Shown: positions 4,618-57,073 of the stretch, in pieces
Position numbering within the stretch: the first letter of the stretch is position 1
Layout: the number at the start of each line of letters is the position of its first letter
Source of the DNA: Stenotrophomonas sp. ZAC14D1_NAIMI4_1
GTDB lineage: Bacteria; Pseudomonadota; Gammaproteobacteria; Xanthomonadales; Xanthomonadaceae
Reading direction: 5' to 3'
Assembly (NCBI RefSeq): GCF_003086775.1
Contig: NZ_CP026001.1
Span: forward strand, 3,312,407 to 3,376,406
Length of the DNA stretch: 64,000 nucleotides
Program-made: the position numbers and the translations under genes
Notes under the pieces: generated by a model
Databases searched by the model: none
Seen by the model: only the letters and a program-made list of their open reading frames with translations
What the model was told of the DNA's origin: nothing

Positions 4618-4722
4618 GGCGGGACGGAGAGGGGCCGCCGGGACACGCGGTAAATACGTCCATGTAGCTCGTAGGCGCCATCCGTGGCGCCTACGGTCCC
4701 GACGGCCCCTCTCCGTCCCGCC
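4618..4722. repeat. structured palindromic repeat, copy A
   Basis: This is a 105-bp element with outer arms of about 25 bp. The left arm begins GGCGGGACGGAGAGGGGCCG and the right arm ends with its exact complement. The arms enclose a GGCGCC(A)TccGTGGCGCC hairpin and a TACGTCCATGTA hairpin. It lies between the divergent yjdM and hsp70-like genes, together with copy B. No open frame in it looks coding. The gap 4522-5102 otherwise holds only about 90 bp of linker containing GACAGTTTCCC and its reverse. Confidence 0.8.
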
Positions 4723-4813
4723 TTGGACAGTTTCCCGCGCCGGCGGCCGGAAAATTCAAAGGCCAGAGCCGCGCTCTGCCGTTTGCTGCCGCGCTCAGGG
4801 AAACTGTCGAGAG

Positions 4814-4992
4814 CCGAGGGGGCGGCCGGAGCAGGACCGCAGGCGCCATGGGCCCGAGGCATGCCTCGGGCGGGTTGGGCAGGACGCCCAACCCCGGTCT
4901 TGCCGTGTGCGCAGGACAGCGCACACGAGCAAGGCGCCTACGAGCCCCCATGGATGGGTTTACGGCGTGTCCTGCTCCGGCCGCCCCCTCGG
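4814..4992. repeat. structured palindromic repeat, copy B (expanded)
   Basis: The outer arms start CCGAGGGGGCGGCCGGAGC and are complementary over about 24 bp at the two ends. The interior is longer than in other copies. It contains three extra hairpins: CCCGAGGCATGCCTCGGG at about 4854, TTGGGC..GCCCAA at about 4875, and a GTGTGCGC..GCGCACAC stem at about 4905. It then has the family's conserved module GAGCCCCCATGGATGGGTTT. It ends about 110 bases before the hsp70-like start, so it probably lies in that gene's upstream region. Confidence 0.75.
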
Positions 4993-5102
4993 CTGAACAC
5001 GAAGCAGGGAGGCGCTGAACCCATCCGAAGCAGAGGGGGAACTTGCAGGAAGACCCGATCTGCAGCAGAGTGCGCGGCCCCCGCCCGCCCCCGGACCTCC
5101 CC

Positions 5103-6464
5103 ATGCGCCTTGGCATCGACTTCGGTACCAGCAACTCCGCCGCCGCCATCGTCCGTGATGGACAGCTGCTGCCGATCCGCTTCGGTGACGCCGAACAGTT
5201 CCGTACCAGCGTGTATTTCCCCGGCGTGGTGCCCGACCCGGACGACTTCCAGCTCGACGCCGGCCAGGAACACGAACTGCAGCAGATGATCGACAGCGCC
5301 GCCCGTGCCGCGCGCGCCGCCGGCCAGGAACGCACCCCGCAGGCACTGCGCCGCGAAGCCCTGCGCGCCCTGCGCCGTGAGTGGATGGAAGCCCGCGCCG
5401 GCAAGGAACGCAGCGCCAGCGACCTGCTGCAGAACGCCATCTACGGCGATGACGCCCTGGAAGCCTATTTCGAGGAGCACGAAGGCAACCTCGTGCAGAG
5501 CCCGAAGTCGATGCTCGGCTACAACCTGCACCCGCGCGCGCGGCAGACCATCACCGGCATCGCCGCGCACATCCTCGAACACATCCGCCTGACCGCCAGT
5601 GCCCAGCTCGGCCAGCCGCTGCGCGCGGCCCTGCTCGGACGCCCGGTGCAGTTCCGCAGCTCGATCGGCGCCGCCGGCAACGACCAGGCGCTGGACATCC
5701 TGCGCGAGGCCGCCACCCAGGCCGGCTTCGACCAGATCGACTTCCTCGAAGAACCGGCGGCGGCGGCCATGCATTACCACGCCGAAAGCCGCGAGCGGCA
5801 CCAGGCCGTCATCGTCGATATCGGCGGCGGCACCACCGACATCGCCCACGCCGAAGTGGGCGGCGATGCCGCTCCGCGCATCCACCGCGCCTGGGGTATC
5901 GCCCGCGGCGGTACCGATATCGATCTGTCGCTGAGCCTGTCCAGCTACATGCCGCTGTTCGGCCGCGGCGTCACCCGCGTGCCCGCCCACCACTACGTGG
6001 AAGCGGCCACGGTGCAGGACATGACCCGCCAGCGCGACTTCCGCCAGCACAAGTACGACCACGTGGATGATCCGTGGGGTTCGCGCCTGCAGGCGCTGCA
6101 GGACACCGGCAACACCGCACGCCTGTACCGCGACGTCGAACGCGCCAAGATCGCCCTGAGCAGCAGCCCCAGCCACCGCAGCACCCTGGATTACATCGCC
6201 CGCGACCTGCATGCCGACAGCAGCACCGAAGGCCTGGCCACCGCCGCCTCGGGCTACCTGGCCCAGATCCGCGAGCTGCTGGCACAGGTCCGCAGCGATA
6301 TCGGCGGCGACCCGGATGCGGTGTTCCTGACCGGCGGCATGTCCCGCGCCGGCTACCTGCGGCAGGCGGCGGCCGAGGCCTTCCCGGGCGCCCGCATGGT
6401 CCATGGCGAGCCCTCGCTGGGCGTGGTCCAGGGCCTGGCGCTCGCGGCAGCCAGCCGGGATTAA
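5103..6464 (+). CDS. Hsp70-family chaperone (YegD-like)
   Basis: This encodes 453 residues. The phosphate-1 motif LGIDFGTSNS opens the protein, phosphate-2 is VIVDIGGGTTDIAHAEVG, and the adenosine motif is VFLTGGMSRAGYL near the C-terminus. FLEEPAAAAMHY is the usual connecting motif. The length matches E. coli YegD and stops after the nucleotide-binding domain, so the protein lacks the DnaK substrate-binding domain and lid. It is probably an ATP-binding actin-fold protein of uncertain client. The start is the ATG before MRLGIDFG; upstream sequence in this frame is repeat-derived. Confidence 0.85.
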   Translation: MRLGIDFGTSNSAAAIVRDGQLLPIRFGDAEQFRTSVYFPGVVPDPDDFQLDAGQEHELQQMIDSAARAARAAGQERTPQALRREALRALRREWMEARAGKERSASDLLQNAIYGDDALEAYFEEHEGNLVQSPKSMLGYNLHPRARQTITGIAAHILEHIRLTASAQLGQPLRAALLGRPVQFRSSIGAAGNDQALDILREAATQAGFDQIDFLEEPAAAAMHYHAESRERHQAVIVDIGGGTTDIAHAEVGGDAAPRIHRAWGIARGGTDIDLSLSLSSYMPLFGRGVTRVPAHHYVEAATVQDMTRQRDFRQHKYDHVDDPWGSRLQALQDTGNTARLYRDVERAKIALSSSPSHRSTLDYIARDLHADSSTEGLATAASGYLAQIRELLAQVRSDIGGDPDAVFLTGGMSRAGYLRQAAAEAFPGARMVHGEPSLGVVQGLALAAASRD

Positions 6465-6599
6465 CAAAACGTTACGCGGAGTTTGCTACCCTCGGTAGGC
6501 TTGATAGGGCTCTACCTTCCGCCGGCTGCGCCGGTGTGTGTACCCGGGTAGGGCTTGGCCCGCTTGACGGGCCTTGCGGCCATGCCTTCTGGCTCGTTC

Positions 6600-6986
6600 A
6601 TGGTCCGCGTACTACCCGAGCCGCCATCGAGACCCGCTTTGGGCACCCGCCTGGCCCCTGTGGCCGCACAACCTGAAGAAGCACCTGCACCCATCGACTG
6701 CCGCCGTTGTGACGCGGTCTGTTGCCGGTTGCCCGTGCTGCTGCAGGCCGGCGACGACGTGCCCCGCCAGTATACCTCGCGCGACAGGCACGGCCGTGCC
6801 GTGATGGCGCGCAATGACGAGGGCTGGTGCGCGGCGATCGATCCCTATCACCTGCGCTGCACGATCTATTCGCAGCGCCCGGCGATCTGCCGCCAGTTTT
6901 CGATGGGTGGCGACGACTGCCGCCGCGAGCGGCAGGATTACCTGCGCCAGGCTGATGCCTGGTCGCTTTCCTCCCCTTCCACCTGA
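6600..6986 (+). CDS. YkgJ-family cysteine-cluster protein
   Basis: The product is about 128 residues from the ATG at 6600; in-frame ATGs at 6555 and 6585 are alternatives. Conserved cysteines lie in IDCRRCDAVCC, WCAAIDPYHLRCTIYSQRPAICRQF and GGDDCRRER. This is the YkgJ/UPF0153 pattern (CxxCxxxCC...C...C) thought to bind zinc or an iron-sulfur cluster. No reaction is established for the family. A 60-residue basic protein follows after 11 bases and is probably co-transcribed. Confidence 0.75.
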   Translation: MVRVLPEPPSRPALGTRLAPVAAQPEEAPAPIDCRRCDAVCCRLPVLLQAGDDVPRQYTSRDRHGRAVMARNDEGWCAAIDPYHLRCTIYSQRPAICRQFSMGGDDCRRERQDYLRQADAWSLSSPST

Positions 6987-6997
6987 CAGGAGCAACC

Positions 6998-7180
6998 ATG
7001 CCCCGCAAGGCAAAGACCCCCGCGAAGGCTACCAACAGCATCCGCAGCGAACGCAAGGGCGCGGCCGCCAGCACCACGGTCAGCAGCGATTCGATTGCGT
7101 CCGATCTGGCCGCGTTCCGCAAGAGCGGTGGCAAGATCGAAGTGCTTGGCACCACCTGGGCGCTGAAGAAAGCCAGCTGA
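6998..7180 (+). CDS. small basic protein of unknown function
   Basis: The 60-residue product starts 11 bases after the YkgJ-type gene and is preceded by ACAGGAG. The N-terminal half is Lys/Ala/Thr-rich and probably disordered. The C-terminal half, SDLAAFRKSGGKIEVLGTTW, looks like a small folded or binding motif. I do not recognise an assigned family. A GC-rich hairpin (CCGCGGCGGC stem, 7191-7213) lies just downstream, between this gene and the convergent DUF4097 gene, but it lacks a T run. Confidence 0.6.
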   Translation: MPRKAKTPAKATNSIRSERKGAAASTTVSSDSIASDLAAFRKSGGKIEVLGTTWALKKAS

Positions 7181-7228
7181 CCCACCCTGACCGCGGCGGC
7201 GCTGCCGCCGCGGCCTGCCGGGCCGCGC

Positions 7229-8104
7229 TCAGCGGTCCAGGCTGACCCGCACGCTGCCCGAATGCGACTGGATGCGGATGTCACCATCGCCGCCGCCCAG
7301 CTTCGTATCGAGACTGCTGCCCGGCCCATAGCGCGGCCGCTCCACGGTGCCGGCATCACTGTTGATCGAGCCGGCGAAGCTGTTCACCGACAGCTGGGCC
7401 GAGACCTTGACCGGCAACCGCAGGTTGACCGAAGCACTGACCGACTCGACGTTGATGCGACCGCCCGGGGCCAGGCCCGACGTGGACAGGTCGATGCCGC
7501 CGGAGACCGTCTCCACCGCCAGGCGCTGGATGCGGCCGGCATCCACGCCGACCCGCCCGGACACCGTCTGCGCGCCGATATCCCCTGACACGCCCCCACC
7601 CGCCTCGATGCGGCCACTGACGGTGTTCACATCCAGGCGCGGCGTCTGCAGCTTGGCGACGACGTTGCCGCTGACCGTGTTGAGCTTGCTGTCGCCGCTG
7701 CGTCCGGCGGCATTGAGGTCGCCACTGACCGTATCGGCCTGCAGCCGGCGCACGTCGATGCCGCTGATGTCCTGGTCGGCACTGACCGTGCTCAGCAGCA
7801 GTTCCGAGGCACGCGGGACATTCAACACCAGGGTGGCCGTGCCGTTGGTGTGGCGCCGCGGGTATTCCACTTCCCAGCGCACGCGGTTGGCGCTCTTTTC
7901 CTGCCGCAGCTGCAGCCCATCGCCGAGGCTGCCGGTCAGCTGCACTTCGTTGCGGTCCCAGCCGCGCACGGTGACCTTGCCGGCCACGTTGCTCAGCTCG
8001 ATGCGGCCACCGCTGGCCAGGGTGTGGCGCTCATCCACGCGTGTATCGGCCAGGGCCAGGGCAGGCAGCAGCAAGGCAGCGCAGAGCGGGAAAAGGGTTC
8101 GCAT
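7229..8104 (-). CDS. DUF4097-family beta-repeat exported protein
   Basis: This encodes 291 residues with a signal peptide ending ALALA. The body is a ladder of short beta-strand repeats with the recurring motif TVSG (LNTVSGNV, VNTVSGRIEA, AQTVSGRVGV, VETVSGGIDL). This matches the DUF4097 family of right-handed beta-helix-like proteins. It is the last gene of a sigma / anti-sigma-like / DUF4097 operon (13-base gap). The context suggests an envelope structural or sensory partner of the regulatory pair. No catalytic residues are evident. Confidence 0.8.
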   Translation of the reverse strand: MRTLFPLCAALLLPALALADTRVDERHTLASGGRIELSNVAGKVTVRGWDRNEVQLTGSLGDGLQLRQEKSANRVRWEVEYPRRHTNGTATLVLNVPRASELLLSTVSADQDISGIDVRRLQADTVSGDLNAAGRSGDSKLNTVSGNVVAKLQTPRLDVNTVSGRIEAGGGVSGDIGAQTVSGRVGVDAGRIQRLAVETVSGGIDLSTSGLAPGGRINVESVSASVNLRLPVKVSAQLSVNSFAGSINSDAGTVERPRYGPGSSLDTKLGGGDGDIRIQSHSGSVRVSLDR

Positions 8105-8116
8105 GGGGGTCTCTCC

Positions 8117-8659
8117 TCAGGTTGTCAGTCCGGCCGCGGCGGCCTGCGCCGCCTGCCGGGTCAGTTCCAGCCGCAGCGTATAGGTACGCTTGAGCTGTCC
8201 AAGCAGGTGCGGTGCGCGCGGGTCCTGCGCCAGCGCAGCACGGATCTGTGCCGCGCTTTCATCCAGTTCGTGCAGGGCCGGCTGCCATTCCGCGGCGCGG
8301 GCACCGGGCAGCGATGCCACGGCCTGCTGGTACTGCTCGGTCATTGCCGCTGCCTGCAGCTGCAGCATCGATGGCGCAGGTGCCTGCAGCGGTGCCTGCC
8401 GCCACGGGGCCACCGCATACACCGCCAGGCCGGCGGCCAGCGCAGCGCCTGCTGGCAGCCACCAGCGCGGGCGGGCACGGCGCGGCAGGCCCACGACGTT
8501 GCCGGGATGCTCCACCGCTGCCGGTGCCGCTTCGCGCGGTGGCAACTGCGCCGCCAGGCGTGCCCAGCCATCGGCCGGTGGCATGCGCTGCCCGGGCAGT
8601 GCCCGCAGCCGCGCCTGCAGCGCAGGGTCGTGGTCGTGGTCGGTTTCGTGGGTACTCAT
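8117..8659 (-). CDS. single-pass membrane protein, putative anti-sigma factor
   Basis: This encodes 180 residues. A charged N-terminus with DHDHDPALQARLRALPGQRMPPADGWARL is followed by one membrane span (WWLPAGAALAAGLAVYAVA, about residues 68-86) and a helical C-terminal domain. Its ATG overlaps the stop of the upstream ECF sigma gene by four bases (ATGA). Position, topology and coupling suggest a cognate anti-sigma factor. No canonical ZAS His/Cys motif is visible, so the function rests on context. Confidence 0.65.
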   Translation of the reverse strand: MSTHETDHDHDPALQARLRALPGQRMPPADGWARLAAQLPPREAAPAAVEHPGNVVGLPRRARPRWWLPAGAALAAGLAVYAVAPWRQAPLQAPAPSMLQLQAAAMTEQYQQAVASLPGARAAEWQPALHELDESAAQIRAALAQDPRAPHLLGQLKRTYTLRLELTRQAAQAAAAGLTT

Positions 8660-9240
8660 GTCATGTCTCCCAGACGCGCGCGCAACAGACTCCGCGCGCG
8701 GTGCAACTGTGCCTTGGAACTGCCGACGGCCATCTGCAGCTGTGTGGCGATTTCCTGGTGTTTCCAGCCTTCGATGTCGTGCAGCACCAGCACCGCACGC
8801 GCCCGTGGTGGCAGCGTCGCCAGCGCGCGTTCCAGATCGCGCTCGGTGCCGGCGCAGCGATCGTGCACGGCCAGCTCCTGCAGGCCGCCATCGACCTCGT
8901 CCAGGCTGTCATGGTCCGGCCCGGCGGCGCGGCCGCGCAGCTCCATCAGCGCTGCGTTGACGCCCAGCCGGTGCAGCCAGGTCGACAGGCTGCTTTCGAA
9001 GCGGAACCCCGGCAGCGCCTTCCAGGCCTGCAGGAAAGCTTCCTGCAGCGCATCCTCGGCGCGCGCCTGCTGGCCGCCGCACAGGCGCCACAACACCGCA
9101 AACACGCGCGGCGAATGGCGCCGGTAGAGCTGTTCGTAGGCCCCCATGTCGCCCGCCGCCGCGGCCCGCACCAGGGCGGGTTCGTCGACGGCGTCGGCGT
9201 CGGTGGTGGCAGGCAGCGCGGGCATGGTGGTGTCGAGCAT
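8656..9240 (-). CDS. ECF-type RNA polymerase sigma factor
   Basis: The product is 194 residues from the ATG at 9240. Region 2 is visible as YEQLYRRHSPRVFAVLWRLC and EDALQEAFLQAWKALPGF. Region 4 is LPPRARAVLVLHDIEGWKHQEIA followed by a helix-turn-helix and SKAQLHRARSLLRARL. Both are standard sigma-70 extracytoplasmic-function features. The stop overlaps the anti-sigma-like gene, and DUF4097 follows. Upstream in-frame ATGs at 9225 (shorter) and further out make the exact N-terminus uncertain. No autoregulatory promoter was found with confidence. Confidence 0.8.
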   Translation of the reverse strand: MLDTTMPALPATTDADAVDEPALVRAAAAGDMGAYEQLYRRHSPRVFAVLWRLCGGQQARAEDALQEAFLQAWKALPGFRFESSLSTWLHRLGVNAALMELRGRAAGPDHDSLDEVDGGLQELAVHDRCAGTERDLERALATLPPRARAVLVLHDIEGWKHQEIATQLQMAVGSSKAQLHRARSLLRARLGDMT

Positions 9241-9362
9241 ATCGCTTGGATGCGGCGACGCTGGAAAAGGTTTAAGGCCGATTGAAGGCGGCGCCATTGC
9301 AACCTTTTCGATGCTGGCTGCATCCATGCAGGGTCCTTGGTGAAAATCCCCGGAGTCCCGCC

Positions 9363-9542
9363 ATGTCCAGCTCCTCCTGCGCCGCCCTGCTGGTGATCGT
9401 CGCCTGCGTCGTGCTGCAGGCCCTGGACCTGTCGCTGCAGCTTCGCGCGGACAGCAGCCAGGCCTGCCTGCATCAGCATCGGCAGGCGGTGGTCTGCGTG
9501 GCCTGGCCAGGATCGGTCGAAACCCCGGCACGCGCCGGGTAA
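9363..9542 (+). CDS. possible small membrane-associated protein
   Basis: This short frame (59 residues, MSSSSCAALLVIVACVVLQ then a polar tail with two Cys) fills the 337-base gap between the divergent sigma-factor and MscS-like genes. CCCGGAG lies 8 bases upstream of the ATG. The hydrophobic N-terminus could be a signal or membrane anchor. Nothing else in the gap stands out. In this GC-rich genome an open frame of this size is weak evidence, so it may not be real. Confidence 0.35.
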   Translation: MSSSSCAALLVIVACVVLQALDLSLQLRADSSQACLHQHRQAVVCVAWPGSVETPARAG

Positions 9543-9577
9543 CATCAAGGGCCGTTATCGCCACGTGTTGTCGCCCC

Positions 9578-10171
9578 ATGATGTTGTCGCTGAAGGATCA
9601 CCTGCCCGCCTGGAGCCATCCGTGGCTCAACTACATCGGCATCGCCCTGCAGATCGTGCTGGTGCTGGTGGTTGCCTGGCTGCTGCGGGTACTGGCCCGC
9701 CGCCTGATCCGCCGTTTCGCCGAGCACTACACGCTGCCGCCGGAGATGGCGATGGGCGCGCGCCGGATCACCAGTTTCGTGGTCTATTTCAGTGCGCTGC
9801 TGTACATCCTCAGCCTCCTGGGCGCGAAGCCATCGGTGCTGTGGACGGCCTTCACCGGTTTTGCCGCCGTGGGCGCGGTAGCGTTCTTCGCGGCGTGGAG
9901 CGTGCTGTCGAACATTTTCTGCACGCTGCTGATCTTCACCACCCGTCCGTTCCGCCTGCATGACTACATCGAGGTGCTGGAGAACGGCGAGAAGCCGGGG
10001 CTGAAGGGCCGGGTGATCGACGTGAACCTGATCTACACGACGCTGCAGGAAACGGGCAACGGCCACGAGGGCACGGTGCTGCAGCTGCCGAACAACCTGT
10101 TCTTCCAGCGCACGGTGCGGCGCTGGCGGGATCCCTCGCAGGCCCCGGGTGGCATCCAGGGCGACGGCTGA
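9578..10171 (+). CDS. short MscS-family mechanosensitive channel protein
   Basis: This encodes 197 residues with three hydrophobic segments (about 18-40, 65-85, 92-118). The third is followed by an MscS-type beta domain (TRPFRLHDYIEVL, GLKGRVIDVNLIYTTL, GTVLQLPNNLFFQRTVRR). The Gly/Ala-rich segment FTGFAAVGAVAFFAAWSVLSNIF resembles the pore-lining TM3 of MscS. The C-terminal alpha/beta domain of full-length MscS is missing, as in other minimal family members. The expected role is osmotic release across the inner membrane. Confidence 0.8.
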   Translation: MMLSLKDHLPAWSHPWLNYIGIALQIVLVLVVAWLLRVLARRLIRRFAEHYTLPPEMAMGARRITSFVVYFSALLYILSLLGAKPSVLWTAFTGFAAVGAVAFFAAWSVLSNIFCTLLIFTTRPFRLHDYIEVLENGEKPGLKGRVIDVNLIYTTLQETGNGHEGTVLQLPNNLFFQRTVRRWRDPSQAPGGIQGDG

Positions 10172-10250
10172 GGGGTTGAGGGTTTTTGCAGGGCTGCGCC
10201 CTGCACCTGCAGAGGCCAGAGCAAGAGCAGAAGCTGGCTTTCCGTGGGTT

Positions 10251-10352
10251 GGCGGGGCGGGTCCGGTTGAGGGGGACGCTGTGAACCCATCCATGGGGGC
10301 TTGGTCGCGGCATCCATGGCGCTCACACCCCCTCAACCGGACCCACCCCGCC
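10251..10352. repeat. structured palindromic repeat, copy C
   Basis: The outer arms start GGCGGGGCGGGTCCGGTTGA. The right arm is the complement over 25 bp with one mismatch. The interior holds the conserved module AACCCATCCATGGGGGCTT and an imperfect GCGGCATccATGGCGC hairpin. It is part of island 1. Confidence 0.8.
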
Positions 10353-10398
10353 TTCGACAGTTCTCCGCGATCTGTCAGAACGGCGTTCTGCTTTGGTG

Positions 10399-10561
10399 GG
10401 TGCCGACCGTTGGTCGGCACGAATGAATTCATTCGATATCTGACAGATGTGTTGACCAAGGTCGACACCTACCAACAACCGCACGTCCCAGTAGATCCAC
10501 GCCATGCGTGGATGAATTCATTCGATATCTGACAGATGTGCCGACCAACGGTCGGCACCCA
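10399..10561. repeat. cluster of GTAG-type REP palindromes
   Basis: Four short palindromes occur in alternating orientation. They are GTGCCGACCGTTGGTCGGCA near 10400, GTTGACCAAGGTCGACACC near 10450, GTAGATCCACGCCATGCGTG near 10491, and GCCGACCAACGGTCGGC near 10541. They resemble the GTAG/SMAG REP family of Stenotrophomonas, in which a GTAG-like head precedes a variable stem. They occupy the centre of island 1. Confidence 0.7.
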
Positions 10562-10602
10562 CCAACAGCTGCATTTGCCAACAGCGGACGGAATCTGTCA
10601 GA

Positions 10603-10706
10603 GGCGGGGCGGTGTGGGTGGGCAGGACCGTTGGCGCCATGGATGGCGCCATCGAGCCCCCAGGGACGGGTTTACGGCGTGTCCTGACCACCCACACCGC
10701 CCCGCC
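10603..10706. repeat. structured palindromic repeat, copy D (inverted)
   Basis: The arms start GGCGGGGCGGTGTGGGTGGG and pair with the right end over about 25 bp. The interior holds the TTGGCGCCATggATGGCGCC hairpin and the conserved module in reverse (GAGCCCCCAGGGACGGGTTT). The flank CATCCCACGGAATGC follows on the right, where copy C has its mirror-image flank on the left. Confidence 0.8.
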
Positions 10707-10786
10707 ATCCCACGGAATGCCGCTCTGGCTTTTGACGTTGCCTTTGCATTGAGCAGGTGCAGGGCGCAGCCCTGCAATAGAACCCC

Positions 10787-13065: not shown

Positions 13066-13075
13066 CATCGATGGC

Positions 13076-22466: not shown

Positions 22467-22521
22467 TCTGCTTTCTGCTTTTCAGTCGATTCCGTGGTGG
22501 ACGCGCCCGGAAACCGTCCGG

Positions 22522-22625
22522 GGCCGCGCGGGTGGGTTGCGCAGGGGCGTAAGCGCCATGGATGGCGCGCTCGAGCCTACAAGGACGTATTCACGGCGTC
22601 CCCTGCGCAACCCACCCGCGCGGCC
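22522..22625. repeat. structured palindromic repeat, copy E
   Basis: The outer arms start GGCCGCGCGGGTGGGTTGCG and pair perfectly with the right end over 28 bp. Inside are AGCGCCATggATGGCGCG and GAGCCTACAAGGACGTATTC, the family's two hairpin modules. The left flank carries TTCCGTGG and GGAAACCGTC. It lies between convergent genes. The rest of the 22390-22671 gap holds the REP, the terminator and a short linker. Confidence 0.8.
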
Positions 22626-22671
22626 CGCTCACGATACAGAGACCACCACGAGGGGCCCCGCCGTTGGCCAC

Positions 22672-38096: not shown

Positions 38097-38852
38097 ATGA
38101 TGGACGCAGCTGACATGGAGGCAGCCCTGATGCAGATGACCCCGCGGGCCAGTCGGCCACGCTTCCTGCTTGTCGAGGATGACATCATCAGCCGCGGTTT
38201 TTTCAAGGCGGCGTTGGAAACGTTACCAGCGGATGTGGACACCGCTGACTCACTTGCAAGTGCATTGGCGCGCGCCGAACCTGGTGCCCATGACCTGTGG
38301 CTGATCGACGTCAACCTGCCCGACGGCAATGGCGCGCAGCTGCTGCATGAACTGCGCCGCTCGCATCCGGACACGCCTGCCCTGGCCCATACCGCCGATG
38401 GCGATGTGAGCATCCACGCGCGCCTGCGCGAGGCCGGCTTCAGCGACACCCTGGTCAAGCCGCTGGGCCGCGACCAGCTGCTGAAGGCGGTGCGTCGCGC
38501 ACTGGTCAACAGCCCCGCGGGCGCGACCCCGCCGCCGGCAGCGATCGAGCTGGTGGTCGAGGACTGGGACGAGACGGCGGCCCTGGCGGCGCTGAATGGC
38601 CAGCGCAACCACCTGATCGCCCTGCGCGAGCTGTTCCTGGCGGAACTGCCGGGGGTGCGCGATGCGGTGGAACAGGCGGTGGACCAGCACGACGCGTCGA
38701 GCCTGCGCAACCAGCTGCATCGCCTGCAGGCCAGCTGTGGGTTTGTGGGTGCGGCGCGGTTGGCGCGGGCGGTGCGGCAGCTGCATCATGCGCCGGAGTC
38801 GGGGCCGGCGCAGGCCGGATTCCGGGCAGCGGTGGCAGCCCTCCTGCACTGA
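38097..38852 (+). CDS. response regulator with C-terminal Hpt domain
   Basis: This encodes about 251 residues; several in-frame ATGs cluster at 38097, 38100 and 38115. The receiver domain (about 20-140) has FLLVEDD, LWLIDVNLPDGNG (phospho-Asp) and TLVKPLGRDQ (Lys). The C-terminal 90 residues look like a histidine phosphotransfer domain, with QLHRLQASCGFVGAARL matching the HxLKGxxxxxGA pattern. No kinase lies next to it, so it probably takes phosphate from a distant hybrid kinase. It is divergent from rlmD. Confidence 0.75.
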   Translation: MMDAADMEAALMQMTPRASRPRFLLVEDDIISRGFFKAALETLPADVDTADSLASALARAEPGAHDLWLIDVNLPDGNGAQLLHELRRSHPDTPALAHTADGDVSIHARLREAGFSDTLVKPLGRDQLLKAVRRALVNSPAGATPPPAAIELVVEDWDETAALAALNGQRNHLIALRELFLAELPGVRDAVEQAVDQHDASSLRNQLHRLQASCGFVGAARLARAVRQLHHAPESGPAQAGFRAAVAALLH

Positions 38853-38937
38853 GGGTGTTCGGCAGGGCTGCGCCCTGCACCTGCTCAATGCAACGGCAAC
38901 GGCCAAGGCCAGAGCAACAGCGGGCATTCCGTGGGAT

Positions 38938-39041
38938 GGCGGGGCGGTGTGGGTGGTCAGGACACGCCGTAAACCCGTCCATGGGGGCTCGATGGCGCCA
39001 TCCATGGCGCCAACGGTCCTGCCCACCCACACCGCCCCACC
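38938..39041. repeat. structured palindromic repeat, copy F
   Basis: The outer arms start GGCGGGGCGGTGTGGGTGGT and end with the complement (two mismatches in 26). Inside are GTAAACCCGTCCATGGGGGC and TGGCGCCATccATGGCGCCA. It is part of island 2; the flank GCATTCCGTGGGAT lies on the left. Confidence 0.8.
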
Positions 39042-39065
39042 TCTGACAGTTGGCCGGTGGCTGTT

Positions 39066-39161
39066 GGTGGGTGCCGACCGTTGGTCGGCACATCTGTCAG
39101 ATATCGATATTCAAAAATTGGATCCAACCCCGTGCCGACCAACGGTCGGCACCCACCTCCA
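39066..39161. repeat. inverted pair of GTAG-type REPs
   Basis: GGTGGGTGCCGACC..GGTCGGCAC and, about 60 bases later, the reverse GTGCCGACC..GGTCGGCACC flank a short AT-rich linker containing ATATCGATATTC. They form the centre of island 2. Confidence 0.7.
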
Positions 39162-39200
39162 ACAGCAGCAGGTTCTGACAGACCGCGGGAAACTGTCGAA

Positions 39201-39302
39201 GGCGGGGTGGGTCCGGTTGAGGGGGTGTGAGCGGCATGGATGCCGCGACCAAGCCCCCATGGATGGGTTTACGGCGTCCCCCTCAACCGGACCCACCCCG
39301 CC
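39201..39302. repeat. structured palindromic repeat, copy G (inverted)
   Basis: The arms GGCGGGGTGGGTCCGGTTGA... and their complement pair perfectly over 25 bp. The interior has GCGGCATggATGCCGC and AAGCCCCCATGGATGGGTTT. The arm sequence is nearly that of copy C, and copies D, F and H share another arm type. Confidence 0.8.
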
Positions 39303-39372
39303 ATCCCACGGAATGCAGGCCTTTGACGTTGACGTTGACGTTGATTCTGCGGGTGCAGGGCTGCAAGCCCTG

Positions 39373-39389
39373 CCCCCCCCCCCCCCCCC
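39373..39389. repeat. 17-base poly-C tract beside recO
   Basis: Seventeen consecutive C residues lie between the end of island 2 and the recO stop codon (TAA on the minus strand at 39390-39392). It would be a poly-G run in recO mRNA just after the stop. Such tracts mutate by slippage and are prone to sequencing error. Confidence 0.9.
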
Positions 39390-40109
39390 TTATCTCCGGG
39401 GAGTGAGCTGCTCGAGCAGTTCCCAGGATTTGAGGCCCTTGGCCCCCAGGTGATGGGACAGCACCCGCCGCATCGGCAGCCGCAGACTGGCCAGGTCTGC
39501 TGCATCCGGCTCGTCGTCCGCCGCCAGCGCCAACAGCGCCGAGCCCGTCGCCGCCGCCTGACGTTCACCGCCACGCTCGCTCAGCAACCGTTGCGGCCCC
39601 TCCTGCGGGTCAAGTTCGTAACGTGCCGCCGGGTCCACCGGCTGGCCGTCACTGGCCGTGTCCAGTTCGAACCCCAGCCCCAGCGCCGCCAGCAGCTCAC
39701 GCTCGAAACGGCGCAGCGTCCACGCCAGCCCCGCCCCCACCGCCAGGCGCGCACGCGCCTCGCCGTAGGCGAGGTACAGCTCCGGCAGCGGGTCCTGGCG
39801 GGGAGCCAGGCGCAGGGTCAGTTCACTCAGGTAGAAACCGGCCAGCATTGCCTGGCCGACCAGGCGCGGGGCCGCATCCAGCGCCTCGGCGCCGCGCAGC
39901 TGGGCCAGTTCACCACGCTGCAGGGCGCTGAAACGTATCCACTGCAGCGGCTGCAGGGCCGCACGCAGCACCTGGCCCTTGGCCGTGGACACTCCGCGCG
40001 CCAGCACGCCGATGCGGCCGTGCTGCGCGCTCAGTACCTCCACCAGCAGGCTGGTCTCACGGTAGGCCCGTGCATGCAGCACGAACCCGGTGTCGTCCTC
40101 GATCAGCAT
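39390..40109 (-). CDS. recO: DNA repair protein RecO
   Basis: This encodes 239 residues. The start [20 protein letters not shown] and [20 protein letters not shown] form the N-terminal OB fold, and [20 protein letters not shown] with [15 protein letters not shown] is the helical domain. The zinc-finger Cys residues found in some RecO proteins are not seen. RecO loads RecA on SSB-coated DNA with RecR. It is the last gene of the lepA/lepB-rnc-era-recO cluster (18-base gap after era). Confidence 0.9.
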
Positions 40110-50436: not shown

Positions 50437-50540
50437 GGCGGGGCGGTGTGGGCTTGCAGGACACGCCGTAAACCCGTCCATGGGGGCTCGTAGGCGCCAT
50501 CCATGGCGCCTGCGGTCCTGCAAGCCCACACCGCCCCACC
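50437..50540. repeat. structured palindromic repeat, copy H
   Basis: The arms start GGCGGGGCGGTGTGGGCTTG and pair over 26 bp with one mismatch. The interior has GTAAACCCGTCCATGGGGGC and AGGCGCCATccATGGCGCCT. Compared with copy F the arm differs at several bases, and the opposite arm has changed to match. Confidence 0.8.
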
Positions 50541-50704
50541 CCCGACAGTTTCCCGGTGACGGTGAGTGAACTCCCATTGCGGTAGGTGTCGACCTTGGTC
50601 GACACGCTTGGTCCACGCTTGCGTGGATGCGAGCGAAGCGACCGGCGTTTGATTTTGATTTTCTTTTTTCTTTTCCGTGGCTGACGCGCCCGGAAACTGT
50701 CGGG

Positions 50705-50808
50705 GGCCGGGCGGGTGGGTTGCGCCGGGGCGTGAGCCGCATGGATGCGGCGACCGAGCTTACATGGACGTACTTGCAGCGTCCCCTGCGCAGCCCACCC
50801 GCCCGGCC
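50705..50808. repeat. structured palindromic repeat, copy I
   Basis: The arms start GGCCGGGCGGGTGGGTTGCG and pair with the right end (one mismatch). Inside are AGCCGCATggATGCGGC and GCTTACATGGACGTACTTG. With copy E it forms a subgroup that shares arm type and a left flank containing TTCCGTGG, GACGCGCCCGGAAAC and TGTC. Confidence 0.8.
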
Positions 50809-50820
50809 AGCCACAGCGCC

Positions 50821-50843
50821 AGTCGACTAACAGTCGACTCTAC
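50821..50843 (-). repeat. GTAG-type REP
   Basis: On the minus strand this reads GTAGAGTCGACTGTTAGTCG, a GTAG head followed by an AGTCGACT-type stem. Confidence 0.6.
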
Positions 50844-50967
50844 CGATCGACCAGCCACGAGGGGCTGCGCCGTTGGCTGGAACAACCTGTTACCCGCATG
50901 GGGCATGTGCCCGCCACGACCGCATGCCATGCTGGCCACCTTGATCCCTGCCAGCGAGAACGCCCGC

Positions 50968-51831
50968 ATGACCACCATCATCGCCCCGCGCGTCCACGAC
51001 ATCGGCGGCCTGGAAGTGCGCCGCGCGGTGCCCACCCTGCAGGCCCGCAGCATCGGCTCGTTCGTGTTCGTCGACCAGATGGGCCCGGCCATCATGCACC
51101 CCGGCACCGCCATCGACGTGCGCCCGCACCCGCATATCGGCCTGGCCACCGTCACCTACCTGTGGTCCGGCGCCATCGGCCACCGCGATACGCTGGGCTC
51201 GGACCAGGTCATCCGCCCCGGCGACGTGAACTGGATGACCGCCGGCCGCGGCATCGCCCATTCCGAGCGCACCCCGCCGCCGGACCGCAGCCACGACAAC
51301 CCGATCCACGGCATGCAGACCTGGGTCGCGCTGCCGAAGTCGCACGAGGAAATCGAACCGGCGTTCTACCACCATGCCGCGGCCACCCTGCCCGAGCAGC
51401 GCCGCAACGGCGCGTGGCTGCGCGTCATCGCCGGCCGTGCCTATGGTGAAGAATCACCGGTGAAGGTCTTCGCCGATACGCTCAACGTGGCCATCGATCT
51501 CGACCCGGATGCGGAGATCGACATCGACAACGGCCATCGCGAACGCGCGCTGTACATCCTCGAAGGCCAGGCGCAGCTGGATGGCGTGGATATTCCGGCC
51601 CAGCACCTGGTCATCCCCGAGGCCGGCGCCGTTGGCCGCCTGCGCGCGAAGACACCGGTGAAGGCGATGCTGTTCGGTGGCGAACCGCTCGATGGCCCGC
51701 GCCACCTGTGGTGGAACTTCGTGTCCAGCTCCAAGGAGCGCATCGAACAGGCCAAGCACGATTGGGAAGCCGGGCGCTTCGGCACCATCCCCGGCGATGA
51801 CAAGGAATTCATTCCGCTGCCGCAGTACTGA
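50968..51831 (+). CDS. pirin-family protein 1
   Basis: This encodes 287 residues. [23 protein letters not shown] holds the cupin metal-binding His pair, and [15 protein letters not shown] provides the remaining His/Glu. [10 protein letters not shown] and the C-terminal [20 protein letters not shown] are pirin features. Pirins are iron-binding bicupins; E. coli YhhW has quercetinase activity. The role here is unknown. Aquaporin follows on the same strand after 145 bases that contain a REP. Confidence 0.85.
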
Positions 51832-51841
51832 GACAGAAAGC

Positions 51842-51863
51842 AGTCGAGCAAGCTCGACGCTAC
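51842..51863 (-). repeat. GTAG-type REP
   Basis: On the minus strand this reads GTAGCGTCGAGC-TT-GCTCGA, a GTAG head with a seven-pair stem. It lies between the first pirin and the aquaporin gene. Confidence 0.6.
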
Positions 51864-51976
51864 GGCAAGGCCTCGGCACATCCCGCCGGGGCTCCACGCC
51901 GCGTATACGCGGCCATCACCTGCTGCGCACTCCAATGCGACCGCACGCATCCGCGCGCCTCATTGGAGAGCACGTC

Positions 51977-52696
51977 ATGGGCATGGGCAAACGCTTGGCC
52001 GCCGAGTTCCTCGGCACGTTCTGGCTGGTCCTGGGTGGCTGTGGCAGCGCGGTGCTGGCCGCGAAATTCGGCGGCGACGGCAATCCGCTGGGCATCGGCT
52101 TCCTCGGCGTGGCACTGGCTTTCGGCCTGACGGTGGTGACCGGCGCCTACGCGTTCGGCCACGTGTCCGGCGCGCACTTCAATCCGGCGGTCAGCGTCGG
52201 GCTCTGGGCCGGCGGCCGCTTCCCAGCCCGCGACCTGCTGCCCTACGTCATCGCCCAGTGCGCCGGCGGCCTGCTGGCCGGCTTCATCCTCCTGCAGATC
52301 GCCTCCGGTGCGCCCGGCTTCGGCATTGACAGCAGCCAGGCCGGGGCATTCGCCAGCAATGGCTACGGCGCACTGTCGCCGGGTGGCTACAGCGTGGCCG
52401 CCGCCTTCCTGTGCGAGGTGGTGCTCACCGCCGTGTTCCTGGTGGTCATCATGGGGGCCACGCACGGCAAGGCACCGGCCGGCTTCGCCCCGCTGGCCAT
52501 CGGCCTGGCCCTCACCCTGATCCACCTGATCAGCATCCCGGTCACCAATACGTCGGTGAACCCGGCCCGCTCCACCGCCGTGGCTTTCTTTGCCGGCAGC
52601 GGCGCGACCGGCCAGTTGTGGCTGTTCTGGGTGGCCCCGCTGCTGGGCGGCATGATCGGCGGGATGATTTACAAGTGGGTCGGCAGCGACCACTGA
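51977..52696 (+). CDS. aqpZ: aquaporin Z
   Basis: This encodes 239 residues with six membrane spans and two re-entrant NPA loops: [10 protein letters not shown] (NPA 69-71) and [10 protein letters not shown] (about 191-193). The selectivity-filter Arg follows the second NPA. Small residues and a Cys in GGCGSAV match AqpZ-type water channels rather than glycerol facilitators. It is an inner-membrane water pore. The upstream frame is longer, but [18 protein letters not shown] is the family start, 9 bases after GGAGAG. Confidence 0.9.
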
Positions 52697-52708
52697 GCCC
52701 TGCCCTGG

Positions 52709-52737
52709 CCATCACGGCCGACACTCGGCCGTGATGG
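52709..52737 (+). terminator. hairpin after aqpZ
   Basis: CCATCACGGCCG-ACACT-CGGCCGTGATGG is a perfect twelve-pair stem starting 13 bases after the stop. The trailing sequence TTACGGTT has only a weak T run, so termination may be partial. Confidence 0.6.
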
Positions 52738-52892
52738 TTACGGTTGTAACCGCAATTTGTGCGATCGCTCACGTTCCGTTAAGGTCGGAATGACCGTCCG
52801 TACACATGCGGACGGCCACGGCATCCGGGGATGGGATGCCACCGCCACCGGCGCGCCGGTGGCGCCTTACGACACGCCACCTTGGGGGATGC

Positions 52893-53351
52893 ATGAAGTT
52901 CGTGCCTGTTGTGTTGTCGAGCCTGCTGTTCGTCGCGGCCCATGCCGCCGCACAGGCTCCGGTCGAGTGCCCGTCGCTGCCCGCCGGCAGTGGCCTGCAA
53001 TGGCAGCAGCAGGCACAGCCCGATTTCGTGGTGTGCCGTGCGGCCACCGCCGAAGGCCGCGAAGTGCTGAGCCTGATGCTCAGCCAGCGCGACCCGGGCA
53101 TTCCACTCAGCCGCTCGCTGCGCCAGGAAAAAGGCAGCTTCGGCGGTGAATCGATGTACTGGTACCAGCCCGACCTGGGCGGCCAGCAACCGCCCGGCTA
53201 CGCCGAGCGGCGCATCAGCGTGGTCAAGCTGGACAAGGGACGCTATGCGCAGATCGCGCTGTACCCGGACAGCAGCCAGGAACTGGGCAGCCTGCAGCAG
53301 CTGGCGCAGGGCATGAGCCTGACCCCGTCGGCCGTGGCCGACGGTCGCTGA
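52893..53351 (+). CDS. exported hypothetical protein
   Basis: This encodes 152 residues with a signal peptide (MKFVPVVLSSLLFVAAHAAA). VECPSLP and FVVCRAAT contain two Cys residues that could pair in the periplasm. The rest has no family I recognise. TTGGGGG precedes the ATG. The 196-base gap upstream holds the aqpZ hairpin and two further GC-rich stems near 52790 and 52840, and AT-rich sequence around 52740 that could carry a promoter. Confidence 0.6.
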   Translation: MKFVPVVLSSLLFVAAHAAAQAPVECPSLPAGSGLQWQQQAQPDFVVCRAATAEGREVLSLMLSQRDPGIPLSRSLRQEKGSFGGESMYWYQPDLGGQQPPGYAERRISVVKLDKGRYAQIALYPDSSQELGSLQQLAQGMSLTPSAVADGR

Positions 53352-53407
53352 GCGGTTGCGGGGATGACTGCCTGGCAGCATCCCCGCACTTCAACCCGAT
53401 CGATCGG

Positions 53408-53479
53408 TAGTGCCGGCCGCTGGCCGGCACGCTCGTCTGCCGCCATCGCAGGCGGTTGCCGGCCAGCGGCCGGCACTAC
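53408..53479. repeat. inverted pair of SMAG-type REPs
   Basis: GTAGTGCCGGCC..GGCCGGCAC at the left and its reverse complement ending CACTAC at the right are separated by about 20 bases containing GCCGCC. Such head-to-head GTAG dimers are typical of Stenotrophomonas REP clusters. It lies between a hypothetical gene and pirin 2 (convergent). Confidence 0.85.
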
Positions 53480-53480
53480 C

Positions 53481-54332
53481 TCAGAAGCGGCCTTCCTGGA
53501 AATCCACGAAGGCCTGCATCAGCTCCTGCCGGGTGTTCATCACGAACGGGCCGTGGCGCATGACCGGCTCGCGCAGCGGGCGACCCGCCACCAGGATCAG
53601 CCGTGCGCCTTCGCTTCCGGCCGACAGGTGCAGCTGCTCGCCGCCGCCCAGCACCGCCAGTTCCTGGCGCGCCACGTCACGCGCGGCGTCCTGCTCACCC
53701 ACCGTCACCCCGCCCTCGAAAACATAAGCGAAGGCGTTGTGCCCTTCCGGCAGCGTGTAGGTCCAGGCGCGGTCGGCCTCGAGGCGGATGTCCAGGTACA
53801 CCGGATCGGTGGCCGGCTGGACGATCGGGCCGGCCGTGCCATCGACGGTACCGGCGATCACCTTCACCTCCACGCCCGCCGCCGGCTGCACCACCGGAAT
53901 GCGCTCTGGCGCGAATTCCTGGTACTTGGGGTCGGTCATCTTGTCGCGCGCCGGCAGGTTCACCCACAGCTGGAAACCGCGCATCTGCCCGCTTTCCTGC
54001 TCCGGCATTTCCGAATGGACCAGGCCGCGGCCAGCGGTCATCCACTGCACGCTACCCGGGGTCAGCAGGCCTTCGTTGCCGTGGTTGTCGCGGTGGCGCA
54101 TGCGCCCGTCGAGCATGTAGGTGACGGTCTCGAAGCCACGGTGCGGGTGTTCCGGGAAGCCGGCGATGTAGTCCTCGGCACGATCGGTGCCGAATTCATC
54201 CAGCAGCAGGAACGGATCGAGGTCGGGCAGCGACGGGCCGCCGATGACGCGGGTCAGGCGCACGCCGGCACCGTCGGAGGTGGGCATGCCACGGATGGTG
54301 CGCTGCACGCGCACCGGCTCGGGAAGGCTCAT
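53481..54332 (-). CDS. pirin-family protein 2
   Basis: This encodes 283 residues. DPFLLLDEFG, FPEHPHRGFETVTYMLDGRMRHRD and VQWMTAGRGLVHSEMPE carry the metal-binding His/Glu set, and QLWVNLPARDKMTDPKYQEF is typical of the main pirin branch. It is clearly distinct in sequence from pirin 1 about 2 kb away. ACAGGAG precedes the start. The role, iron-dependent oxidase or regulator, is not determined. Confidence 0.88.
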   Translation of the reverse strand: MSLPEPVRVQRTIRGMPTSDGAGVRLTRVIGGPSLPDLDPFLLLDEFGTDRAEDYIAGFPEHPHRGFETVTYMLDGRMRHRDNHGNEGLLTPGSVQWMTAGRGLVHSEMPEQESGQMRGFQLWVNLPARDKMTDPKYQEFAPERIPVVQPAAGVEVKVIAGTVDGTAGPIVQPATDPVYLDIRLEADRAWTYTLPEGHNAFAYVFEGGVTVGEQDAARDVARQELAVLGGGEQLHLSAGSEGARLILVAGRPLREPVMRHGPFVMNTRQELMQAFVDFQEGRF

Positions 54333-54565
54333 GGCGACTCCTGTTGGATGGATGCCGATGAAGATGGACGCCGCACGCCGCAACGCCAATGGGCGGCACC
54401 GCAACCGATTGTTCCACCACTGGTGTTCGCCGGGCGTCATGTCCGCCGCGCGGCGGCGCCTGCGTTGTGTTCGACCAAAGTACTACCGCAGAAAAGTCCC
54501 GCACACATTGACCGTGCACAGGTCACGCGGGACTCTTTGAACATCTTTCCGGGAGAGAGCACCTC

Positions 54566-56647
54566 ATGAAAGGGTTTTCCAAAATAGGCTGGGCGGCCCT
54601 CGCCCTGCTTGGCGCATTCTGTCTGGGCACAGTGGCCCTGCGCCGCGGCGAGCACATCAACGCATTGTGGATCGTGGTCGCCGCGGTATCGCTGTACCTG
54701 GTGGCCTACCGCTTCTACAGCCTGTTCATCGCCGACAAGGTGATGCAGCTCGATCCGACCCGGGCCACCCCGGCGGTGATCAACAACGATGGCCTGGACT
54801 ACGTCCCGACCAACAAGCACGTGCTGTTCGGCCACCACTTCGCCGCCATCGCCGGCGCCGGCCCGCTGGTCGGCCCGGTGCTGGCCGCGCAGATGGGCTA
54901 CCTGCCCGGCCTGCTGTGGCTGGTGGTGGGCGTGGTGCTGGCCGGCGCGGTGCAGGACTTCGTGGTCCTGTTCCTGTCCAGCCGCCGCAACGGCCGTTCG
55001 CTGGGCGACCTGGTGCGTGAGGAAATGGGCCAGGTGCCCGGCACCATTGCGCTGTTCGGCGCCTTCCTGATCATGATCATCATCCTGGCGGTGCTGGCGA
55101 TGGTGGTGGTCAAGGCACTGGCCGAAAGCCCCTGGGGCATGTTCACGGTGATCGCGACGATGCCCATCGCGATCCTGATGGGCGTGTACATGCGCTACAT
55201 CCGCCCCGGCAAGATCGGCGAGATCTCGGTGGTCGGCCTGATCCTGCTGCTGGCCGCGATCTGGTTCGGCGGCAAGGTGGCGGCGGACCCGACCTGGGGC
55301 CCGGCCTTCACCTTCACCGGCACCCAGATCACCTGGATGCTGATCGGCTATGGTTTCGTCGCCTCGGTGCTGCCGGTGTGGCTGCTGCTGGCCCCGCGCG
55401 ACTACCTGTCCACCTTCCTGAAGATCGGCACGATCATCGCCCTGGCGATCGGCATCCTGGTGGTCATGCCGGAACTGAAGATGCCGGCCCTGACCCAGTT
55501 CGCCGCCAGCGGCGACGGCCCGGTGTGGAAGGGCGGCATGTTCCCCTTCCTGTTCATCACCATTGCCTGCGGCGCGGTGTCCGGCTTCCACGCACTGATC
55601 TCCTCCGGCACCACGCCCAAGCTGCTCGCCAATGAAGCGCACATGCGCTACATCGGCTACGGCGGCATGCTGATGGAATCGTTCGTGGCAGTGATGGCGC
55701 TGGTGGCGGCCTCGATCATCGATCCGGGCATCTACTTCGCAATGAACAGCCCGGCGGCGGTGATCGGTGCCGATGCGGCCTCGGCGGCGCACTTCATCAC
55801 CAACACGTGGGGCTTCACCATCAGCCCGGAACAGCTCACCGCGACGGCGGCGGCCATTGGTGAACCGACAATCCTGCATCGCGCCGGTGGCGCCCCCACG
55901 CTGGCGGTTGGCATCGCGCAGATCCTGCATGAGGCGATCCCCAGCAGCAGCGACGCGATGATGGCGTTCTGGTACCACTTCGCGATCCTGTTCGAAGCAC
56001 TGTTCATCCTGACCGCGGTGGACGCCGGCACCCGCGCCGGGCGTTTCATGCTGCAGGACCTGCTCGGCAACTTCGTGCCGGCCTTGAAGAAGACCGAGTC
56101 GTGGACCGCCAACATCATCGGTACCGCAGGCTGCGTGGCGCTGTGGGGCTACCTGCTCTACACCGGCGTGGTCGATCCGTTCGGCGGCATCCAGACGCTG
56201 TGGCCGCTGTTCGGCATCTCCAACCAGATGCTGGCCGGTATCGCGCTGATGCTGGGCACGGTGGTGCTGTTCAAGATGAAGCGTGACCGCTACGCGTGGG
56301 TCACTGCCGTGCCGGCGGTGTGGCTGCTGATCTGCACCACCTACGCCGGTTTCATCAAGATCTTCGACAGCAATCCGGCGCAGGGCTTCCTGGCGCAGGC
56401 GCACAAGTTCCAGGCTGCGCTTGCCAGCGACACGATCACCGCGCCGGCCAAGTCGGTAGCGCAGATGAAGCAGATCGTGGTCAACGCCTACGTCAACACC
56501 GGCCTGACCGCACTGTTCCTGCTGGTGGTGGGTGCCGTGCTGGTGTATTCGATCAAGACCATCCTGGCGGCGCGCCGCAATCCGCAGCGGACTGACCGTG
56601 AGACCCCGTACGTGGCACTGAAGCCACATGAAATGGTGGATCTGTGA
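54566..56647 (+). CDS. cstA: CstA-family carbon starvation / pyruvate transporter
   Basis: This encodes 693 residues with many membrane spans. [62 protein letters not shown] and [19 protein letters not shown] are CstA hallmarks. CstA proteins take up pyruvate and are linked to peptide use during carbon limitation. The GGGAGAGAG site lies just before the ATG. The stop overlaps the small downstream partner gene by one base, as in cstA-ybdD/yjiX operons. Confidence 0.92.
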
Positions 56648-56871
56648 TGAGCACGCAACTGGTTCCTGCCGGCCAGTACCAGGCGCACCGCCGCATCTGG
56701 CGGCGCCTGGTGCAGACCGCACGGCTGTGCTGTGGGATTCCTGATTACGACAACTACGTCCGGCACATGCTGGAGAAGCATCCGGACCAGGAGCCGATGG
56801 ACTACAAGACGTTCTTCCGTGAGCGGCAGGAAGCGCGGTACGGCGGTCGCAACGGCGGTCGCTGCTGTTGA
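56647..56871 (+). CDS. YbdD/YjiX-family small partner of CstA
   Basis: This encodes 74 residues. [21 protein letters not shown] and [16 protein letters not shown] match the YbdD/YjiX (DUF466) family, which always lies after a CstA-type transporter. The start overlaps the cstA stop (TGATG). The protein is soluble and probably needed for transporter activity. It ends in RCC. Confidence 0.9.
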
Positions 56872-56971
56872 AATTTTGTGCGGGTGCCGGGCTTGCAGCC
56901 CGGCGCCCGCCGATTCAACAGCGACTGCAACTGCAACTGCAAGAGCGTCGGCTCCGGGTTTCTGTTTGGTT

Positions 56972-57073
56972 GGCGGGGCGGTGTCGGATTGCGGGGACGC
57001 CGCAAGTACGTCCCTGTAGGCTTGGCCGCCGCATCCATGCGGCGGACACCCCGCAATCCGACACCGCCCCGCC
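56972..57073. repeat. structured palindromic repeat, copy J
   Basis: The arms start GGCGGGGCGGTGTCGGATTG and pair perfectly with the right end over 25 bp. Inside are AAGTACGTCCCTGTAGGCTT and GCCGCCGCATccATGCGGCG. The variable arm bases differ from copies F and H, with matching changes on the other side. Confidence 0.8.

Follow-up and report, generated by a model that had tools for sequence, protein, structure and literature searches.

Dispersed two-hairpin repeats of Stenotrophomonas with a conserved reverse-strand fold and putative CsrA/RsmA-type loops

The window analyzed here, a whole stretch of 64,000 nucleotides (positions 3312407-3376406 of the 4.70 Mb chromosome of Stenotrophomonas sp. 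ZAC14D1_NAIMI4_1), contains scattered structured repeats of about 100 bp. These raise the question of whether their fold is kept, in which molecule, and what it may serve. A preliminary description, made from the sequence alone, had reported ten copies with covarying arms. Our analysis revealed that the fold is conserved in a set of elements larger than that of the window, and that the element's reverse strand is the strand whose fold is kept, as RNA or single-stranded DNA. We favor, with a probability of roughly 0.57, the view that these are non-autonomous dispersed repeats whose reverse-strand RNA would form a two-site CsrA/RsmA module, its transcription and its binding both being putative.

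Fold and strand of the repeats

At nine of the ten reported positions the element is intact and 102-106 nt long, a pair of inner hairpins being enclosed by an outer stem. The single plan proposed for all ten copies holds for these nine, and the copy reported at 4814 is interrupted by a palindromic insert. Two hairpins are enclosed as described; the outer inverted repeats, given earlier as about 25 bp, measured 25-34 nt and were 85-100% complementary. The loop, described as CC/GG within an AT-x-AT-like context, is real, and is more exactly CNTCCNTG in both hairpins of all nine intact copies. RNA folding z-scores of these copies ranged from -6.0 to -11.3, and none of 200 shuffles equaled the native fold of any copy. 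The copies are as follows, with strands in the list given for the window and elsewhere for the element itself.

4618..4722, forward strand: intact element; loops 4657-4664 and 4679-4686.
4812..4994, reverse strand: interrupted element; arms 4812-4837 and 4969-4994; remaining loop 4949-4956; second hairpin carrying an inserted palindrome of about 80 nt.
10251..10352, forward strand: intact element with arm type GTCCGGTTGA, left partner of a pair; loops 10288-10295 and 10311-10318.
10603..10706, reverse strand: intact element with arm type GTGTGGGTGG, right partner of a pair; loops 10638-10645 and 10661-10668.
22521..22626, reverse strand: solitary intact element whose core shares 48/54 bases with Yersinia RU-2/YPAL; loops 22557-22564 and 22580-22587.
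38938..39041, forward strand: intact element, left partner of a pair; loops 38976-38983 and 38999-39006.
39201..39302, reverse strand: intact element, right partner of a pair, arm type unlike that of the left partner; loops 39235-39242 and 39258-39265.
50437..50540, forward strand: intact element, left partner of a pair; loops 50475-50482 and 50498-50505.
50705..50808, reverse strand: intact element, right partner of a pair; loops 50740-50747 and 50763-50770.
56972..57073, forward strand: intact single element; loops 57009-57016 and 57032-57039.

When the nine intact copies were aligned, pairing held in 97.1% of 383 cells, and 24 of 43 pairs had changed on both sides. The covariation score was 0.512 vs a shuffled mean of 0.164 (0 of 500 shuffles reached it), and slid registers gave 0.05-0.10. 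Because this alignment supplied its own structure, two further tests were made on elements of other genomes, registered by their loops only and with arms at least 70% alike dropped. With all loci from the class (58 of 89 kept), 24 of 24 arm pairs covaried, the observed mutual information (1.09 vs 0.12) was reached in 0 of 100 permutations, and registers shifted by 1-3 gave 0-2 of 24 pairs. Some of the 89 loci had been found with a covariance model and hence selected for pairing, so the loci found by the exact core pattern without the arms (25 of 46 kept) provide the cleaner test; here 22 of 24 arm pairs covaried, and shifted registers gave 0-1 of 24. The outer arms varied freely between most genomes and were common to copies inside one genome, for example in Methylotuvimicrobium. 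The compensating change is thus real and the fold is conserved, as the preliminary description had argued from ten copies.

The reverse strand is the one whose fold is kept, because G-U mispairs in the arms are in excess on that strand. Across 80 elements (two from the same genus, L130), reverse-strand vs forward-strand G-U mispairs numbered 56:13, or 33:6 when counted by element, and in the own genome the distinct cases stood at 44:3. Within the four largest arm types of that genome, both mutational routes to the reverse-strand wobble occurred, and no matching G>A excess was found in their flanks (G>A:C>T 41:41 and 9:33).

Loops, distribution and described relatives

Read on the reverse strand, every loop in the nine intact copies (18 of 18) contains CANGGANG, the core of the RsmA/CsrA consensus. 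The Rsm motif is printed as CANGGANG, with the fuller consensus A/UCANGGANGU/A, in the accessible part of PMC6849547. A covariance-model search of the kind proposed in the preliminary description was carried out with model R1, built from the nine intact copies. R1 detected at least 146 copies in the own genome at E 0.001 or better (150 of 2009 candidates scored); the interrupted copy at 4812-4994 was not reported by it. Matches were obtained in 49 of 61 genomes of the genus (own genome included), in 63 of 369 sampled genomes and 55 of 271 genera of the class (at most nine candidates scored per genome), and in 14 of 200 genomes of a phylum sample, all 14 from the same class. The strict core pattern occurred in at least 119 stretches in genomes of named species, the matches listed including Methylotuvimicrobium, Marinobacter, Thiohalophilus, Nitrococcus and Lysobacteraceae. 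The repeats are therefore a dispersed family, as had been proposed, and one present in many gammaproteobacteria.

Both loops were intact in 137 of the 146 own-genome hits, eight of the nine exceptions having a GCGCTTGCGAAGCAGTGCTTCGCAAGC-like insert in hairpin 1. Of 31 model hits in other genera, 28 likewise kept both loops, the model itself containing the loop letters. The two N positions of the ANGGAN loop vary. In hairpin 2, which lay outside the core search pattern, the first N is free (A 42, T 26, G 16, C 5 and gap 10 of 99 rows, some of them second-strand or cut). The two loops lay 15 nt apart in nearly all elements (78 of 80 and 132 of 137); in pattern-found loci most of this spacing was fixed by the search pattern. 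Among Methylotuvimicrobium/Methylomicrobium loci (L193-L267), several copies had a longer hairpin 2 loop that retained the reverse-strand GGA.

No named family had been recognized for these repeats; this view must be revised, since described relatives exist. The Yersinia RU-2/YPAL repeat shares the core, and the Rfam family TwoAYGGAY (RF01731) coincides with the repeats in some relatives. The window itself gave no Rfam match at Rfam thresholds, and RF01731 (gathering score 43 bits) gave no match up to E 10 over 38900-39350. As the window copies fall below the RF01731 threshold, they are not filed as its members. A permissive Rfam scan of loci from relatives placed RF01731 on the reverse strand at L150 (35.3 bits) and at the model hit L139 (44.0 bits vs the threshold of 43). 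Searched through the class, RF01731 matched 23 of 369 genomes, 15 over threshold. R1 and RF01731 were co-located on opposite strands, as expected, at 6 of 20 RF01731 loci (R1 E at most 1.3e-11 at L336, L326, L330 and L331, and at most 4.3e-6 at L320 and L323), and a weak R1 match (E 0.014-0.074) was found at three further loci of the 20. Two strict loops were present at 11 RF01731 loci, spaced 14-17 nt in four and 20-21 nt in seven, and 9 of the 20 had no strict loop pair.

TwoAYGGAY and the window family are thus alike in having an outer stem and two terminal hairpins with C-G closed ANGGAN loops on the same strand (18 of 18 window loops), in reaching up to seven hits per genome (seven scored), and in the order of close pairs, 4 of the 5 listed keeping that of the window. 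They differ in that the window copies miss the RF01731 threshold and that 7 of 11 RF01731 loci have a wider loop spacing. The Rfam clan of RF01731, CL00106, is one that we take to be the CsrA-binding clan. In the accessible portions of the literature, TwoAYGGAY was listed in 2010 as a probable RNA of the human gut, gamma-Proteobacteria and Clostridiales, and not as a dispersed repeat, and its binding by CsrA has already been proposed by Gardner and Eldai (PMC4333381).

The RU-2/YPAL sequence of Yersinia is printed in the available part of PMC2759123. Its core matched the copy at 22521 at 48 of 54 bases (score 40 vs a shuffled maximum of 16) and four other window copies with scores of 26-32 vs 15-24 for shuffled sequences. 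YPAL has the same core, with two CANGGANG loops on the same strand, and, as far as its available descriptions go, consists of dispersed intergenic repeats like the window family; however, its unit is 168 bp and its loops lie 16 nt apart, whereas the window elements are 102-106 nt. Alignments of the Rfam model Ysr224 (RF02770) fell on the core's forward strand and never reached its threshold of 70 bits, the best scoring 38.0. These results point strongly to homology of the window family with TwoAYGGAY and YPAL. In the literature searched, to which subscription papers are mostly external, YPAL and CsrA never occurred together as words, and of TwoAYGGAY, YPAL, Stenotrophomonas and Ysr224, two co-occurred only in PMC3733652. 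A search with element sequence strings returned no useful title among the matches listed. What is new here is the link between YPAL, TwoAYGGAY and the window family, the one-sided G-U tolerance, and the CANGGANG loops in 18 of 18 cases.

Two other systems were compared. CsrA-sequestering small RNAs (sRNAs) of the CsrB/RsmZ type are a few dedicated genes. According to the portions of the literature available, they likewise present paired GGA motifs in hairpin loops; the window family differs in having two putative sites per element and more than 100 dispersed elements. The Alcanivorax sRNA paper (PMC9788540) describes two CsrA-related sRNAs and, in the parts consulted, names no dispersed family. 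The terminal inverted repeat (TIR) repeats and the GTAG repetitive extragenic palindromes (REPs) of Stenotrophomonas maltophilia (Di Nocera 2013, PMC3733652) are also palindromic dispersed repeats with many dimers, but, in the accessible text, flank Y1 transposase genes and either end in GTAG or share GGGGWSAS.

Genomic placement, gain and loss

The own-genome hits fell into 93 groups with members within 1 kb: 51 forward-reverse pairs, one forward-reverse-reverse triple and 41 singles. None of the 51 pairs had any order except forward-reverse. Partners were alike in arm type in 3 of 45 classed pairs, vs 19% by chance. Class-wide, pair order by loop pattern was not strict (+- 3, -+ 2, -- 1, ++ 1). 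All 146 own-genome copies were free of overlap with called genes in stretches that were 81% coding (simple gene caller), and in other genomes 9 of 80 elements lay within an open reading frame according to a cruder caller. Converging genes enclosed 31 of the 93 groups (17 of 52 multi-copy and 14 of 41 single). At L192, elements at 2320-2444 and 3779-3903 occupy the gaps of a co-directional run of prephenate dehydrogenase, EPSP synthase and cytidylate kinase genes; an element-flanked transposon was considered at this locus and rejected, as the intervening DNA is EPSP synthase. Plasmid and phage collections gave no match in a distant blastn search with the single element L137 as query.

Empty and filled sites were compared at 38300-40100, as the preliminary description had suggested. 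Fourteen of the 61 genus genomes, own included, aligned over the whole query. Seven of 14 stretches compared (G395, G389, G406, G397, G407, G379 and G384) show an empty site, with a short gap and no unit. The site holds a single GCAGGG hairpin in G405, both outer flanks and a partial arm without the core in G392, remnants in G421 and G374, other sequence in G371 and G422, and one side only in G408. Six of the seven empty-site genomes carry the family elsewhere; G384 does not. The full, partial and empty states of one site show either gain or loss of the unit.

Window-type sites are nested composites. Among the groups listed, many own-genome copies are flanked on the outside by GCAGGGCTTGCAGCCCTGC-like hairpins and short repeats resembling GTCAAC, and on the inner side by REPs. 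One paired site in the window contains the following feature between its partners.

39042..39200, no strand: 159-bp spacer of the paired elements, with an inverted GGTGGGTGCCGACC-type REP pair at 39066-39091 and 39132-39157.

On the outside, this pair is flanked by GCAGGGCTGC..CCCTGC hairpins (38862-38878 and 39355-39373), which also occur at 10188-10204, at 57285-57303 and beside other copies; GTCAAC-like short repeats lie between the outside hairpin and the element. The element at 39201..39302 adjoins recO (Pfam RecO, 39390-40109), and a run of 17 C (39373-39389), possibly variable in length, stands directly beside the recO stop. The element at 56972..57073 comes after a cstA-like gene (Pfam CstA, 54632-56647). 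An inverted pair of GGTAGTGCCGGCC REPs is found at 53406-53480. The copy at 4812-4994 is a repeat nested in a repeat, its second hairpin being split by the palindromic insert; a similar or the same insert occurs in hairpin 1 of eight own-genome copies.

G000:C1, starting at 987120, 1170810, 3060315, 3481543, 3513989, 3533113, 4305949 and 4656920: own-genome copies with the GCGCTTGCGAAGCAGTGCTTCGCAAGC-like insert in hairpin 1.

No core-bearing element was found at the 34 and 30 Y1 transposase loci examined, a subset of the Y1 matches. The set of 34 gave five weak matches, all too short in the middle for the core, and the set of 30 gave two, of 66 and 79 nt. The four Y1 transposase genes of the own genome (L035-L038) each lie between their own GTAG-type REP family. 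In six relatives (L385-L389 and L392), Y1 genes near 1.1-1.2 Mb, which we infer to be Smlt1152 (the TIRYT gene), have GGGGTCAG-type inverted repeats on both sides and no window-type element. An association of the family with REPs and REP-associated tyrosine transposases (GTAG REP, S. maltophilia TIR) was rejected, as the own-genome, class and genus Y1 loci examined were without a core-bearing element.

Possible role of the repeats and rival explanations

Under the reading that we favor, the repeats would be a high-copy branch of a superfamily that contains the Rfam TwoAYGGAY RNAs and the Yersinia YPAL repeats. Their copy number and the full, partial and empty states of one site among related species show that these non-autonomous blocks come and go between genes. 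Selection keeps the folded reverse-strand molecule, in which a long stem of nearly free sequence lifts a pair of short hairpins at a three-way junction, with loops 15 nt apart and each of the form C-ANGGAN-G. This is shown by the covariation, by the conserved loops and by the tolerance of G-U pairs on one strand. The folded molecule is probably RNA. Each element may bind one CsrA/RsmA dimer across its two loops, and the many copies may jointly titrate CsrA/RsmA or mark the transcripts that bear them. A CsrA/RsmA role is the best single account of the loops, their spacing and the strand, with binding and transcription putative.

Several observations weigh against this reading. Of the 18 window loops, only 4 match the consensus A/UCANGGANGU/A at all ten letters, and 7 have GGACG rather than GGAUG; in other genomes, 77 of 162 loops match it in full. 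Since the window loops mostly miss the outer A/U letters, our confidence in the CsrA/RsmA reading and in its broader form given below was slightly lowered; that in a DNA element was slightly raised. At 91 of the 146 own-genome copies (91 to 55), the gene upstream runs in the direction of the forward strand, not of the CANGGANG strand; other genomes also favor the forward strand as sense, 18 vs 9 where both neighbors are co-directional (55 of 80 elements classed). The Yersinia sRNA model Ysr224 lies on the forward strand of the core, and RF01731 was seen in just 2 of the 30 permissively scanned loci. The presence of csrA hardly discriminates between element-bearing genomes (58 of 63) and element-free ones (255 of 306; hand count), and one of the five element-bearing genomes without a csrA match, G196, is listed as 98% complete. 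In a strict fixed register, misregistered rows included, the mispair excess is weaker (50:31), and a single strand of DNA, if folded, would likewise account for G-U tolerance on one side.

The last point belongs to the strongest competitor, a purely DNA-level non-autonomous mobile element whose reverse single strand folds at replication and whose loop motif serves as the site of a hairpin-recognizing recombinase (HUH/Y1-type or other). High copy number, fixed pair order, and empty and filled sites agree with it, as does G-T tolerance on one side; for YPAL, moreover, the accessible part of a review describes recent mobility and target duplications of 3-26 bp. However, the examined Y1 loci are without core-bearing elements, the repeats around the own-genome Y1 genes are of another, GTAG type, and the identity of the loops with the CsrA/RsmA core motif is left unexplained. 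We regard this explanation as unlikely, while giving it real weight. It is less probable still that the repeat is a 3'-end mRNA element, its long stem being read with the upstream gene and blocking exonucleases or being cut by RNase III so that the life of the upstream message is altered. The same-strand upstream gene of the 91 copies, whose median distance past the stop is 84 nt, would suit such a function, but the stem alone would suffice for it, and the conserved loops, the 15-nt spacing and the G-U tolerance of the other strand would be unexplained.

Among the natures initially considered for the family, a structured RNA and a non-autonomous mobile element both fit the data; a two-way intrinsic terminator or transcription barrier is very improbable. 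GC-rich intergenic hairpins and the groups between converging genes (31 of 93) speak for a barrier, but a T run of at least four stands beside the stem in only 6 of 87 elements of other genomes on the forward strand and 3 of 87 on the reverse, and the elements at L192 lie in the gaps of a co-directional gene run.

A broader proposal extends the CsrA/RsmA reading to the whole class: the gammaproteobacterial superfamily formed by YPAL, TwoAYGGAY and the window branch might be a scattered CsrB, in which each copy offers a two-site CsrA/RsmA dock and more than 100 copies in a genome together buffer the regulator and place the message carrying a copy under CsrA control. We hold this proposal tentatively and consider it somewhat more doubtful than probable. 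If true, a repeat taken for a miniature transposon would be a spreading regulatory RNA. The present results bring under one identity YPAL, until now filed as a mobile sequence, Ysr224, filed as an sRNA, and TwoAYGGAY, filed as an orphan RNA motif. The Rfam model misses a branch with more than 100 copies in one genome, and this branch provides a natural series of stems in which the sequence is nearly free and the fold is fixed. Whether dispersed repeats sequester a global regulator would become a question open to direct test, and the CsrA-core loops would connect "junk" repeats with a known RNA-control system.

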